A stretch of DNA of 64,000 nt from Haloarcula japonica DSM 6131 (lineage in GTDB: Archaea > Halobacteriota > Halobacteria > Halobacteriales > Haloarculaceae). Each line of letters starts with the position of its first letter. Within the stretch, counting starts at the first letter, position 1. Both the position numbers and the translations under genes were made by a program. Shown here piece by piece: positions 39,921 to 50,096 of this stretch. Below the pieces are notes generated by a model. It ran no database searches. It was not told the origin of the DNA and worked only from the letters and a program-made list of their open reading frames with translations. The DNA is taken from contig NZ_AOLY01000035.1 in NCBI RefSeq assembly GCF_000336635.1, forward strand, positions 62,001-126,000. The letters are read 5' to 3'.

Positions 39921-41084
39921 CTAGTCGTCGGCGGTTGCGGGGACCTGTCCCGTCGCGGCGGCGTCCAGTTCGTCGAGACATTCCAGCCAGTCGAGCATGA
40001 ATTCGCCGCAGTAGTTAAGGAAGGCACCGTTTTCCCAGTCACTGAAATCGCCGTCGGCCATCGCCGTGGCGATCGCGTCGAACACCTCGGCGTAGGAGTC
40101 GGCATCCGAGCCGGCCTCGTCGACGATCTCCCAGACGTGCTCGTTGAGTTCGAGCCCGTGGACCTCGTTAGTCAGGTCTGAGAACGTCGAACGGGGCGCT
40201 TTGTTGTGTTCACACAGCGGGTCGCCGTTGTAGATCTGCTTGCCCAGTACGTCACAGGCTCGCTTGAGGAACACGCCCGACCAGATGTCGTCGAAGCGAC
40301 CGACATCCCATTCGTTGTCGTCCATCGGGAGCTGGTAGAACGCCGGGATGACTTCGCGGCGGAACGCGAGGTTCATCGAGCAGACGGTGAGATACTGCCC
40401 TTCGGCGGCGACGAAGTCGTCGCCGAAGTCCGCCCCGCTGGTACGCGTCTGGGCCTGTCCCTGCAGATCGCCGTCCATCAGGATGCGAACGGCGTCGAGG
40501 TCCGGGACGTTCGTCCAGAGGCCCTGCGAGGCGACCACGTCGTCGACCCGAGTCTGCTCAGTCGACACCGTCTCGTCCATCGCGGCGTAGGGGTAGCCAC
40601 GCGGGTAGAGGCCGTGTTCGTCCTCGTTCTGGTAGAGAACGTTGACCCACTGCTCGTCGGAACTGACCGTCTCGATTTCGCCCTCGAAGGCCAGGTTCGA
40701 CATGTGTGTCCCGAAGAAGTCCGCGTCCTCGTGTGGCAGCGTGTCGTCGTCGATGAACACACCGTACTCGTAGTCGTTGGCCCACATGTAGAGGAGACCA
40801 AACGACGTCTGGGCGTGGCTCGCTTCGGGAATGAGGTGTGAATACTCGCTCGCGCCGTGGGTCTCGAACCACGCTTCGCGTCCGGTCCCGTCGTAGACGG
40901 CCCCGTCGACGCCCTCCTCGTCGAGCATCTGTTCCATCGCGTCAGTGTCACAGAAGTCCTCAGTGATGAGGACGACGAACAGTCGGTCCAGGTCGAACCC
41001 GTGGTCTCGGGCGTTCTGGAAGTACGACCGCATACATTCGTGGTTTCGTATGGTCGGCACCATCACGCAGATGTCGGCTGTCAT
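39921..41084 (-). CDS. RGP/UDP-arabinopyranose mutase-like glycosyltransferase
   Basis: A 387-residue protein matching the reversibly glycosylated polypeptide (RGP, alpha-1,4-glucan-protein synthase) family in its key blocks: GVFIDDDTLPHED (DDD, residues 112-114), YPRGYPYAAMDE, ASQGLWTNVPDLDA, VCSMNLAFRREVIPAFY and VGRFDDIWSGVFLKRACD (263-270). Plant members interconvert UDP-arabinopyranose and furanose and self-glycosylate. Here it may make or transfer an unusual nucleotide sugar. The gene has an iron-box palindrome 17 bases before its start and ends 38 bases before the ferric ABC operon start. Confidence 0.8.
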   Translation of the reverse strand: MTADICVMVPTIRNHECMRSYFQNARDHGFDLDRLFVVLITEDFCDTDAMEQMLDEEGVDGAVYDGTGREAWFETHGASEYSHLIPEASHAQTSFGLLYMWANDYEYGVFIDDDTLPHEDADFFGTHMSNLAFEGEIETVSSDEQWVNVLYQNEDEHGLYPRGYPYAAMDETVSTEQTRVDDVVASQGLWTNVPDLDAVRILMDGDLQGQAQTRTSGADFGDDFVAAEGQYLTVCSMNLAFRREVIPAFYQLPMDDNEWDVGRFDDIWSGVFLKRACDVLGKQIYNGDPLCEHNKAPRSTFSDLTNEVHGLELNEHVWEIVDEAGSDADSYAEVFDAIATAMADGDFSDWENGAFLNYCGEFMLDWLECLDELDAAATGQVPATADD

Positions 41085-41100
41085 GTACTGGCTCTACGTC

Positions 41101-41116
41101 TTTAGGCTATCCTAAA
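41101..41116. promoter_or_regulatory. Iron-box-like inverted repeat of the RGP-like gene
   Basis: TTTAGG-CTAT-CCTAAA is a perfect inverted repeat with the same four-base spacer. It ends 16 bases before the ATG at 41084, and its minus-strand TTTTAGG overlaps where the TATA box is expected (25-32 bases upstream). Confidence 0.65.
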
Positions 41117-44269: not shown

Positions 44270-45436
44270 ATGAACCGACGAGAGTACATCGTTGCGGCCG
44301 GTGTCGGGCTGGCAGGTACCGTTGCCGGCTGTTCGGGTCAGTCCGAGACCGGGAACGGTGGTGACGGCGCGACTGACGATTCGACGGAATCCGGGACGAC
44401 GGCCGCGGAGTCGACTGCGACAGCGAACACCGAATCGACGGGTTCGGGTTACTCAGTCTCGATGGAGCCAGTCGGCGAGGTCACCTTCGAGTCAGCCCCG
44501 GAGGTCTGGGTCGCGAACAACGGCAGCTGGGCAGATATGGGGATCGCGCTCGGTCTCGACGCACCGGAGGGAGTCTGGCTACCATCGCGATATCATACCC
44601 AGTACTACGACGAGATTCCGGGCGTCAGCGTCGACGGAAGGTCGATCCAGAAGTTGTGGGGGGACAGCGGTGTCGGGAAAGAGCAGTTCTACGAAATAGA
44701 CGCCGACATCCACGTCATGGATCCGAACTTCCTGCAGAGCCGCGGGTCCTGGGAGCAGTCGGATATCGATGAAATCGAGTCCCAGATTGCCCCCTTCTTC
44801 GGGAACAGTATCTTCTCGACGGGCTACGAGTGGCACGATTACACCTACTACACGCTGTACGAAGCCTTCGAGAAGCTCTCCCAGGCGTTCCAAAGAACCA
44901 CCCGGTTCGAGGCGTTCCAGTCCCTCCACGAGGAGTTCCGGGCGAGTCTGGACGATATCGTTCCGGACTCGAACCCCGACCGACCGGAAGTGGCCATCAT
45001 GTGGGCCGGGGGCGACGAGCCGACAAGCTTCTCACCGTACCTCATCGAGGACGGGACCAGCTTCAAACAGTGGCGGGACCTGCACGTGCGCGATGCGTTC
45101 GCAAAAACCGATGTCAGGGACTTCCACGCCGACCGGAGTAAGGTCGACTTCGAGACGCTGCTGGAGATCGACCCCGAGTACTTGCTCCTACGGGGGCAGG
45201 AGAACAAGACGCGTTCGGAGTTCGAAGATTCAGTCGTCAGTTTCCTCGAATCGGACCGGACCGGGAGCGAACTGACGGCGGTACAGAACGGGAACGTGTA
45301 CCGCGGCGGACCGCTGTACCAGGGGCCGATAACGAATCTGGTCCTCACTGAACGGGTCGCGTCGCAGGTGTACGACGTAGACCGGGAGCTGTTCGACCGC
45401 CAGCGCGTCGCCGATATCGTCGCTGGGGATCTGTAG
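44270..45436 (+). CDS. Siderophore/cobalamin-type ABC substrate-binding lipoprotein
   Basis: A 388-residue helical-backbone binding protein. The N-terminus MNRREYIVAAGVGLAGTVAGC has a twin-arginine start and a lipobox (Cys21), followed by a Thr/Ser/Glu/Gly linker. The mature part (VEVWVANNGSWADMGIALGL-like strand, FETLLEIDPEYLLLRGQEN, AVQNGNVYRGGPLYQGPITNL) matches TroA/FecB-type receptors for ferric siderophores or corrinoids. No permease or ATPase gene follows. Two iron-box palindromes frame its promoter, supporting an iron substrate. Confidence 0.85.
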   Translation: MNRREYIVAAGVGLAGTVAGCSGQSETGNGGDGATDDSTESGTTAAESTATANTESTGSGYSVSMEPVGEVTFESAPEVWVANNGSWADMGIALGLDAPEGVWLPSRYHTQYYDEIPGVSVDGRSIQKLWGDSGVGKEQFYEIDADIHVMDPNFLQSRGSWEQSDIDEIESQIAPFFGNSIFSTGYEWHDYTYYTLYEAFEKLSQAFQRTTRFEAFQSLHEEFRASLDDIVPDSNPDRPEVAIMWAGGDEPTSFSPYLIEDGTSFKQWRDLHVRDAFAKTDVRDFHADRSKVDFETLLEIDPEYLLLRGQENKTRSEFEDSVVSFLESDRTGSELTAVQNGNVYRGGPLYQGPITNLVLTERVASQVYDVDRELFDRQRVADIVAGDL

Positions 45437-48530: not shown

Positions 48531-49115
48531 TTACTCCTCGTCGCTTCCATCTCCGTTTTCGCTACCGCCGTTGTCCCTGTCCGGACCATCGATATCGTCT
48601 TTTATCGACCGTAATTCGGCATCTACGTCCACTGGGACGTCAGTGACCTGATCGGGGTCGACCTCCTCACTCATCCCTGGTTCATCGGCTAGTCTATCCT
48701 GGATCTGGTCACGCAACTGTTGGGCTTCCTGAATGAGCTCGCGGGTGTCTTCATCTTCCGGCCTCCCTTCCACAGCCTGCTGGAGGTCCGTCAGTGCACC
48801 GTCGAGTCGGGAGAGCGTGGCCCGACTCAGGTCACTCGCACGCTGTCGCACTTCATCCGAGGCGGACCCGGTCGATGTCGGCCGCCCTTCGGCCATCCGG
48901 AGGGCTCGACGGAGAAGTTTCAGCGCCTCGATATTGGTCTTCAAGACGAGAATGACTGCGGGGATAGTCACATCGCTGGTGAACCGCAGGAGTTCACCCG
49001 GCGTCGGGGGCCGCGGCAGGCCGCTGTCGGTCGTAGGCTCGACCTCCGTCTCTAACTCCTGTAGCGTCGTAACGAGGTCCGTAACCAGGGCGGTAAGGTC
49101 GTCGTCCGAACTCAT
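48531..49115 (-). CDS. Haloarchaeal conserved helical protein
   Basis: A 194-residue acidic protein rich in helices, with one moderately hydrophobic stretch (FTSDVTIPAVILVLKTNIEALKLL, about residues 45-68) and a disordered Asp/Glu/Gly tail. ATLSRLDGALTDLQQAVEG and LIQEAQQLRDQIQDRL look like coiled coil. I recall similar haloarchaeal proteins of unknown function; no role can be assigned. It is divergent from the iron-box 49-residue gene. Confidence 0.7.
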   Translation of the reverse strand: MSSDDDLTALVTDLVTTLQELETEVEPTTDSGLPRPPTPGELLRFTSDVTIPAVILVLKTNIEALKLLRRALRMAEGRPTSTGSASDEVRQRASDLSRATLSRLDGALTDLQQAVEGRPEDEDTRELIQEAQQLRDQIQDRLADEPGMSEEVDPDQVTDVPVDVDAELRSIKDDIDGPDRDNGGSENGDGSDEE

Positions 49116-49214: not shown

Positions 49215-49230
49215 ATTAGGTCAACCAAAA
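49215..49230. promoter_or_regulatory. Distal iron-box-like repeat of the 49-residue gene
   Basis: ATTAGG-TCAA-CCAAAA, two mismatches from consensus, with the same four-base spacer. It lies upstream of the TATA-like CCTTTTAGC (49232-49240), mirroring the arrangement at 44214-44264. Confidence 0.5.
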
Positions 49231-49240
49231 TCCTTTTAGC

Positions 49241-49256
49241 TTTAGGGGTGCCTAAC
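49241..49256. promoter_or_regulatory. Proximal iron-box-like repeat of the 49-residue gene
   Basis: TTTAGG-GGTG-CCTAAC, one mismatch from a perfect box, ending seven bases before the ATG at 49264. It would cover the transcript start. Confidence 0.65.
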
Positions 49257-49263
49257 TCAGGTA

Positions 49264-49413
49264 ATGCCATCACAGACGGACGATGTCGAGGTCTCCGAGG
49301 ACCGCCCGGACGTTGCAGCACTGGACAGCGGTGCTGACAGAACCGTATTTACCGAAGACGGGAACAGAGACGGCTGGATTTCGACCGACGTAACTGTCGA
49401 CCTTCGACGATAG
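49264..49413 (+). CDS. 49-residue conserved-looking protein with iron-box promoter
   Basis: A short ORF from ATG 49264 to TAG 49411-49413. It is acidic at the start and ends RTVFTEDGNRDGWISTDVTV then DLRR, a pattern I associate with a family of very small haloarchaeal proteins of unknown function (possibly DUF7331). Support comes from the TATA at the leaderless distance and two iron-box repeats in the same layout as the siderophore-binding gene. It is a candidate iron-stress microprotein. Confidence 0.72.
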   Translation: MPSQTDDVEVSEDRPDVAALDSGADRTVFTEDGNRDGWISTDVTVDLRR

Positions 49414-49556: not shown

Positions 49557-50096
49557 TTAGTCTAGGACGAGCGTGTCGTCTTCGAGGTAGTGCTCGATGT
49601 GGTGAGCGTCTTCCTCGGTCTGGACGATGATTTCCCGGAGGATCTGCGCCGTGGCGTGATCGCCGAGGTTCTCCGCGAGGTCGATGTGGTCACGGAGCGA
49701 CTCGATGACGTCGCCGTACATCTCGAGGTCGTTTTCGAGGGATGTCCGGATGTCGTACACGTCCTGTCCTTCCGGTTCAACCGACGCGTGCTCCTCCTGT
49801 GCCTTCCCGCCGGCGATGGGCGTGCCGCCGAGGGCCTGCGCTCGCTCCGCGAGTTCGTCGGCCGCTTCTTCGGCATGTCCCGCGGCGTCGCCGAGGAACA
49901 GGTGGAGGTCACGGAACTCGGCACCTTCGACGTTCCAGTGGTGCTTCTTGACCTGATGGTACAGCGTGTACGTGTCGGCCAGGTCCTGGTTCAGCGCGTT
50001 GATTACCTGCTCGGACTTCTCCTTGTCGAGGCGGAGTTCGTTCTCTTCGACTTCCCCGAACTCGCGTCGGACGTGCTCTTGTGTTGCCATAGTCAT
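49557..50096 (-). CDS. dpsA: DpsA, DNA-protecting ferritin-like protein
   Basis: A 179-residue Dps/ferritin. The ferroxidase signature spans KKHHWNVEGAEFRDLHLFL and HAEEAADELAERAQALGG, providing the inter-subunit His, Asp and Glu iron ligands. The N-terminal 35 residues resemble the extended tail of Halobacterium DpsA. It oxidises and stores iron as a dodecamer and protects DNA from oxidative damage. ATG 50096 is chosen because a TATA element (50119-50124) lies 23-28 bases upstream; MATQ at 50090 and an upstream start at 50159 are less likely. Confidence 0.93.
   Translation of the reverse strand: MTMATQEHVRREFGEVEENELRLDKEKSEQVINALNQDLADTYTLYHQVKKHHWNVEGAEFRDLHLFLGDAAGHAEEAADELAERAQALGGTPIAGGKAQEEHASVEPEGQDVYDIRTSLENDLEMYGDVIESLRDHIDLAENLGDHATAQILREIIVQTEEDAHHIEHYLEDDTLVLD

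Follow-up and report, generated by a model that had tools for sequence, protein, structure and literature searches.

A haloarchaeal microprotein gene with an iron-box promoter, usually found beside dpsA

FbpB of Bacillus subtilis is a basic small protein of the Fur regulon that is thought to help an sRNA. In Escherichia coli, MntS is shut off by MntR, a repressor of the DtxR family, which in haloarchaea comprises the Idr (Idr1/Idr2), SirR and TroR group. MntS is a very small protein that is made when metal is scarce, and it has been proposed to block the outlet MntP (PMC4361602), so that the scarce metal stays usable. The window analysed here, a whole stretch of 64,000 nucleotides from a Haloarcula genome of 4.28 Mb, contains a gene for an acidic microprotein (Table 1) whose nearest functional parallel, by analogy only, is MntS. 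The two differ in that MntS is concerned with manganese and the exporter MntP, whereas the microprotein is archaeal and is concerned with iron and, as suggested below, with a store, DpsA. Like FbpB, it would be a small protein that is repressed by iron and may serve to spare it; unlike the basic FbpB with its sRNA, it is strongly acidic and has no known sRNA partner.

Coding evidence and family relationship of the microprotein

As described in the sequence-only reading, the window contains a 49-residue ORF that ends in DVTVDLRR; its translation is MPSQTDDVEVSEDRPDVAALDSGADRTVFTEDGNRDGWISTDVTVDLRR, with a pI of about 4 and neither Cys nor His. That reading had named loss of the frame in related genomes as a refuting outcome. 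The refutation failed: the frame was found in all 32 examined genomes of the genus Haloarcula and, using a profile built from 14 diverse members, a match was obtained in 353 of 392 sampled genomes of the Halobacteriales (90 of 95 genera), mostly as one copy per genome. Between species, and in comparisons of equal-length sequences, pN/pS ranged from 0.03 to 0.16 and substitutions fell mainly on third codon positions; judged by such comparisons, the gene is evolving under purifying selection. The C-terminus, which had looked conserved in the single sequence, is indeed kept across the order, with ten residues invariant in the 14 diverse members (T27, V28, F29, E31, N34, W38, T41, D42, T44 and V45) that make up the core pattern TVF-E--N---W--TD-TV. 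We consider it almost certain that this is a real coding gene. The idea that it is too short for routine gene calling had to be abandoned, as homologues are annotated by PGAP under the name 'hypothetical protein' (WP_170216870.1 from Halobellus limi and WP_123077862.1 from Halarchaeum sp.). Since the NCBI pipeline calls these homologues, the microprotein is not novel as an ORF.

Table 1. Features of the microprotein locus (positions are those of the window).
Feature	Position	Strand	Remarks
DUF7547 protein, divergent neighbour	48531..49115	-	PF24414, E 5e-49
Box 1, upstream iron box, TTAGGTCAACCAAA	49216..49229	+	variant right arm, 1 mismatch to TTAGG-N4-CCTAA
TATA-like element between boxes, ATCCTTTTAGCT	49230..49241	+	TTTTAG at 49234-49239
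Box 2, proximal iron box, TTAGGGGTGCCTAA	49242..49255	+	both arms exact
Microprotein ORF	49264..49413	+	49 aa, acidic; divergent DUF7331 relative
dpsA, haloarchaeal DpsA ferritin-like iron store, convergent neighbour	49557..50090	-	NF041388, 298 bits, cut-off 170

The sole family matched consistently was Pfam DUF7331 (PF24018), which was hit by 14 of 14 tested members with a best E of 1.3e-5 and on which no published work was found in the literature searched. The window protein itself scored 18.4 bits, below the gathering cut-off of 27, and two orthologues in the order reached 27.1 and 27.0 bits; the subfamily therefore straddles the cut-off. Profile comparison with hhalign recovered the homologous core that marks membership of DUF7331 (E 5e-4 over 36 columns, with F, N and W in register, at an HH-suite probability of only 31%). 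Both groups are haloarchaeal small proteins of about 50-65 aa that can be aligned over VF-(T/Y)(E/D)--N---W(I/V/L)--(T/S)--(V/L)-L, but DUF7331 has NPLAW where the microprotein branch has N-DGW, N-EGW or N-DAW. They differ also in that iron boxes stand at the microprotein genes, whereas typical DUF7331 genes have none: no box was present within 200 bases of any of 29 such genes in the order, nor at any of the four other DUF7331-type genes of the source genome. The microprotein thus belongs to a branch of its own on the margin of DUF7331, one that is very likely under iron control.

A scan of the microprotein against NCBIfam and a profile search of the PDB gave no match. Its AlphaFold model was of low confidence (pLDDT 66), with a possible hairpin between residues 17-22 and 27-31. 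The acidic N-terminus is probably disordered and is accompanied by the conserved segment TVFTEDGN-DGWISTDLTV. As Cys and His are both absent, we rejected a role as a zinc finger or classical metal binder, and iron binding in a classical site is unlikely.

The promoter and the iron-box regulon

A promoter with a TATA element and two iron boxes had been proposed for this gene and is borne out, one box being exact and the other differing by one mismatch, with the TATA-like TTTTAG between them, 30-25 bases 5' of the ATG. Reading the TATA element from its position rests on general knowledge of haloarchaeal promoters, and its distance from the ATG implies a leaderless transcript. Scans for sigma-70 promoters and terminators found nothing; such models do not fit archaeal promoters. 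The layout had also been said to equal that of the siderophore-binding gene at 44270-45433. It is similar, but not identical in its spacings: at that gene the first base of the exact box is 20 bases upstream of the ATG, versus 22 at the microprotein, and the one-mismatch second box lies 35 bases farther upstream, versus 26.

For the order as a whole, 60 microprotein loci from many genera (477,541 bases) were scanned for boxes. Of 47 exact TTAGG-N4-CCTAA boxes, 45 were no more than 80 bases 5' of the microprotein gene, mostly at -23/-22. In most loci a second box, TTAGG-N4-CC(A/G)AA, was found at -49/-48, usually 26 bases before the proximal one, and the sequence between the boxes gave, over 58 loci, the TATA-like consensus ACCaAAAccttTtT. 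Only box 1 is kept in Halobacterium-like and some other lineages, and only box 2 in others. A homologue on a plasmid of Haladaptatus salinisoli (L196:3839-4102) is unannotated, has a degraded box and adjoins an iron ABC transporter.

In the source genome, TTAGG-N4-CCTAA occurs 19 times versus once for the reversed control pattern; together with the 45 of 47 boxes at the microprotein promoter, this indicates that the boxes are not due to chance. As in the haloarchaeal DtxR-family iron regulon, palindromic TTAGG-type boxes precede genes for siderophore uptake and the gene of a DtxR-type repressor. Several of the boxed genes encode binding lipoproteins of the siderophore type; three were confirmed as Peripla_BP_2 and the rest resemble them in sequence. 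Other boxed genes include those for a binding protein of the iron type, a Fe_dep_repress-domain repressor, a GMC oxidoreductase and a protein that combines DUF5059 with a cupredoxin domain.

Three boxed genes deserve a separate mention. A short DtxR-type (Fe_dep_repress) regulator (L063:1622-2167) has an iron box 5' of its gene, which suggests feedback within the regulon. The DUF5059 protein (L057:1685-4150), with a C-terminal cupredoxin domain and two iron boxes upstream, is possibly a copper protein for iron scarcity. In the window, an RGP-type (PF03214) glycosyltransferase-like gene (39924-41084, minus strand) has an exact box 31 bases upstream (41102-41115) and precedes an iron-type substrate-binding gene that has its own box.

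In Haloferax volcanii, iron starvation raised five FhuD-type paralogues 4.5- to 8-fold (PMC11349517), so that genes behind the box are expected to be on at low iron. DtxR-family genes are present in the source genome. The exact box of the microprotein gene carries the TTAGG-N4-CCTAA that defines membership of the haloarchaeal DtxR-type iron regulon and is conserved order-wide, and the repressor-type sites on either side of the TATA element suggest that the gene is shut off when iron is high and released when it is low. It is very likely that the microprotein is controlled by the iron-box regulator and is induced at low iron.

Neighbourhood and co-occurrence with dpsA

The commonest neighbour of the microprotein gene is dpsA: in 46 of the 60 loci it is no more than 4 kb away, and the other 14 have none at that distance. 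The two genes are convergent in 44 loci, with a gap of less than 300 bp (6-300 bp) in 40 of them. The DUF7547 gene is kept upstream in 30 of the 60 loci and is likely to stand outside the iron unit. The microprotein gene of Halobellus limi stands between a DtxR-type regulator gene, immediately upstream, and dpsA, downstream. Tandem arrays of three dpsA-type genes were seen at L195:4121-5803 and also in G158, G106, G179, G318, G394 and G151, some of them directly convergent with the microprotein; such arrays suggest mixed or specialised DpsA shells.

The search for DpsA covered 70 hand-spread genomes that have the microprotein and every one of the 39 sampled genomes that lack it. Scores above the curated cut-off were obtained in 67 of the 70 genomes with the microprotein versus 16 of the 39 without, counts that ignore kinship. 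Fifteen of these 16 DpsA-only genomes belong to one family, f17, which is probably the Haladaptataceae, and the other genome is 82% complete. Outside f17 and at a completeness of at least 90%, DpsA was present in 54 of 55 genomes with the microprotein versus none of 16 without, again ignoring kinship. A microprotein hidden beside dpsA was looked for in the f17 genomes that have DpsA only, and none was found; with no detectable microprotein in these 15 genomes, DpsA is there independent of it. The complete genome G360 has the microprotein and no DpsA, and in genus g43 both genes are present, far apart, in G151 and neither is present in G079. Since the counts ignore kinship and adjacency can itself cause joint loss, the link is supported, not proven. 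No prior account of the order-wide box conservation or of the dpsA link was found in the literature searched, the primary regulon papers lying outside its coverage. The sequence-only reading had suggested that the microprotein could be an iron-sparing small regulator or chaperone. The genomic evidence, that is, dpsA adjacency and joint absence, points more to DpsA than to general iron sparing, and we put the chances of a functional link between microprotein and DpsA, in any form, at about even.

Possible function of the microprotein

A near-universal gene with a metal-repressor switch and dpsA usually at its side probably helps to adjust iron stores when iron is short. The best overall reading, which we hold tentatively, would be that of an iron-repressed small protein tuning the DpsA iron store. 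With ample iron, a DtxR-family repressor (Idr/SirR/TroR group) would occupy both boxes flanking the TATA element and the microprotein gene would be off. When iron falls, a leaderless mRNA would be transcribed together with the siderophore-uptake genes, and the microprotein may then act as a small modulator that reduces the iron loading of DpsA or frees stored iron. For a protein that would be made only in starvation, and that is tied by position and presence to an iron store, a modulating effect on the store is the best reading. Direct action on the DpsA protein is somewhat more doubtful, and a dedicated order-wide antagonist, which in starvation would bind DpsA and stop loading or open the store, is rather unlikely.

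The main competitor, a possibility to be taken seriously if not the favoured one, is a regulator of iron sparing or uptake, of the FbpB/MntS type, with another partner (an iron exporter, Fe-enzyme or transporter), dpsA being a neighbour only because both genes belong to iron metabolism. The regulation common to the microprotein and the uptake genes, the presence of DpsA without microprotein in f17 and the Haladaptatus locus, with its transporter rather than dpsA alongside, argue for such a partner, but against it stand the joint absence elsewhere and the convergence with dpsA, which was seen at 44 of the 60 loci and in many families. Feedback on the DtxR-family regulator itself, with the microprotein as co-repressor or anti-repressor, is improbable: the order-wide coupling of microprotein and box, the regulator gene upstream in Halobellus limi and the boxed DtxR-type repressor of the source genome are consistent with it, but a regulator gene is no recurrent neighbour among the 60 loci. 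We give very little weight to the idea that the transcript matters and not the peptide, with RNA under iron control running into convergent dpsA at its 3' end. The small distances between the two convergent genes (6-300 bp in 40 loci) would suit this idea, but the amino-acid conservation with its low pN/pS, and the conservation of the microprotein where dpsA is not adjacent, speak against it. A chance ORF, with short length as the sole point in its favour, is contradicted by the conserved frame, residues and promoter and is practically excluded, being refuted by conservation.

If the microprotein were indeed an antagonist of DpsA, it would be a protein-level counterpart of iron-sparing control, exerted via a Dps-type store. 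To our knowledge, no such control by a small protein acting on an iron store of the Dps type has been described in archaea, and we know of no established route by which starved haloarchaea use the iron of DpsA. The microprotein also provides a first regulatory clue to one branch of the DUF7331 family. With a nearly universal and usually single-copy gene, a strikingly conserved iron-box promoter and genetically tractable relatives, the use of DpsA iron is directly testable.
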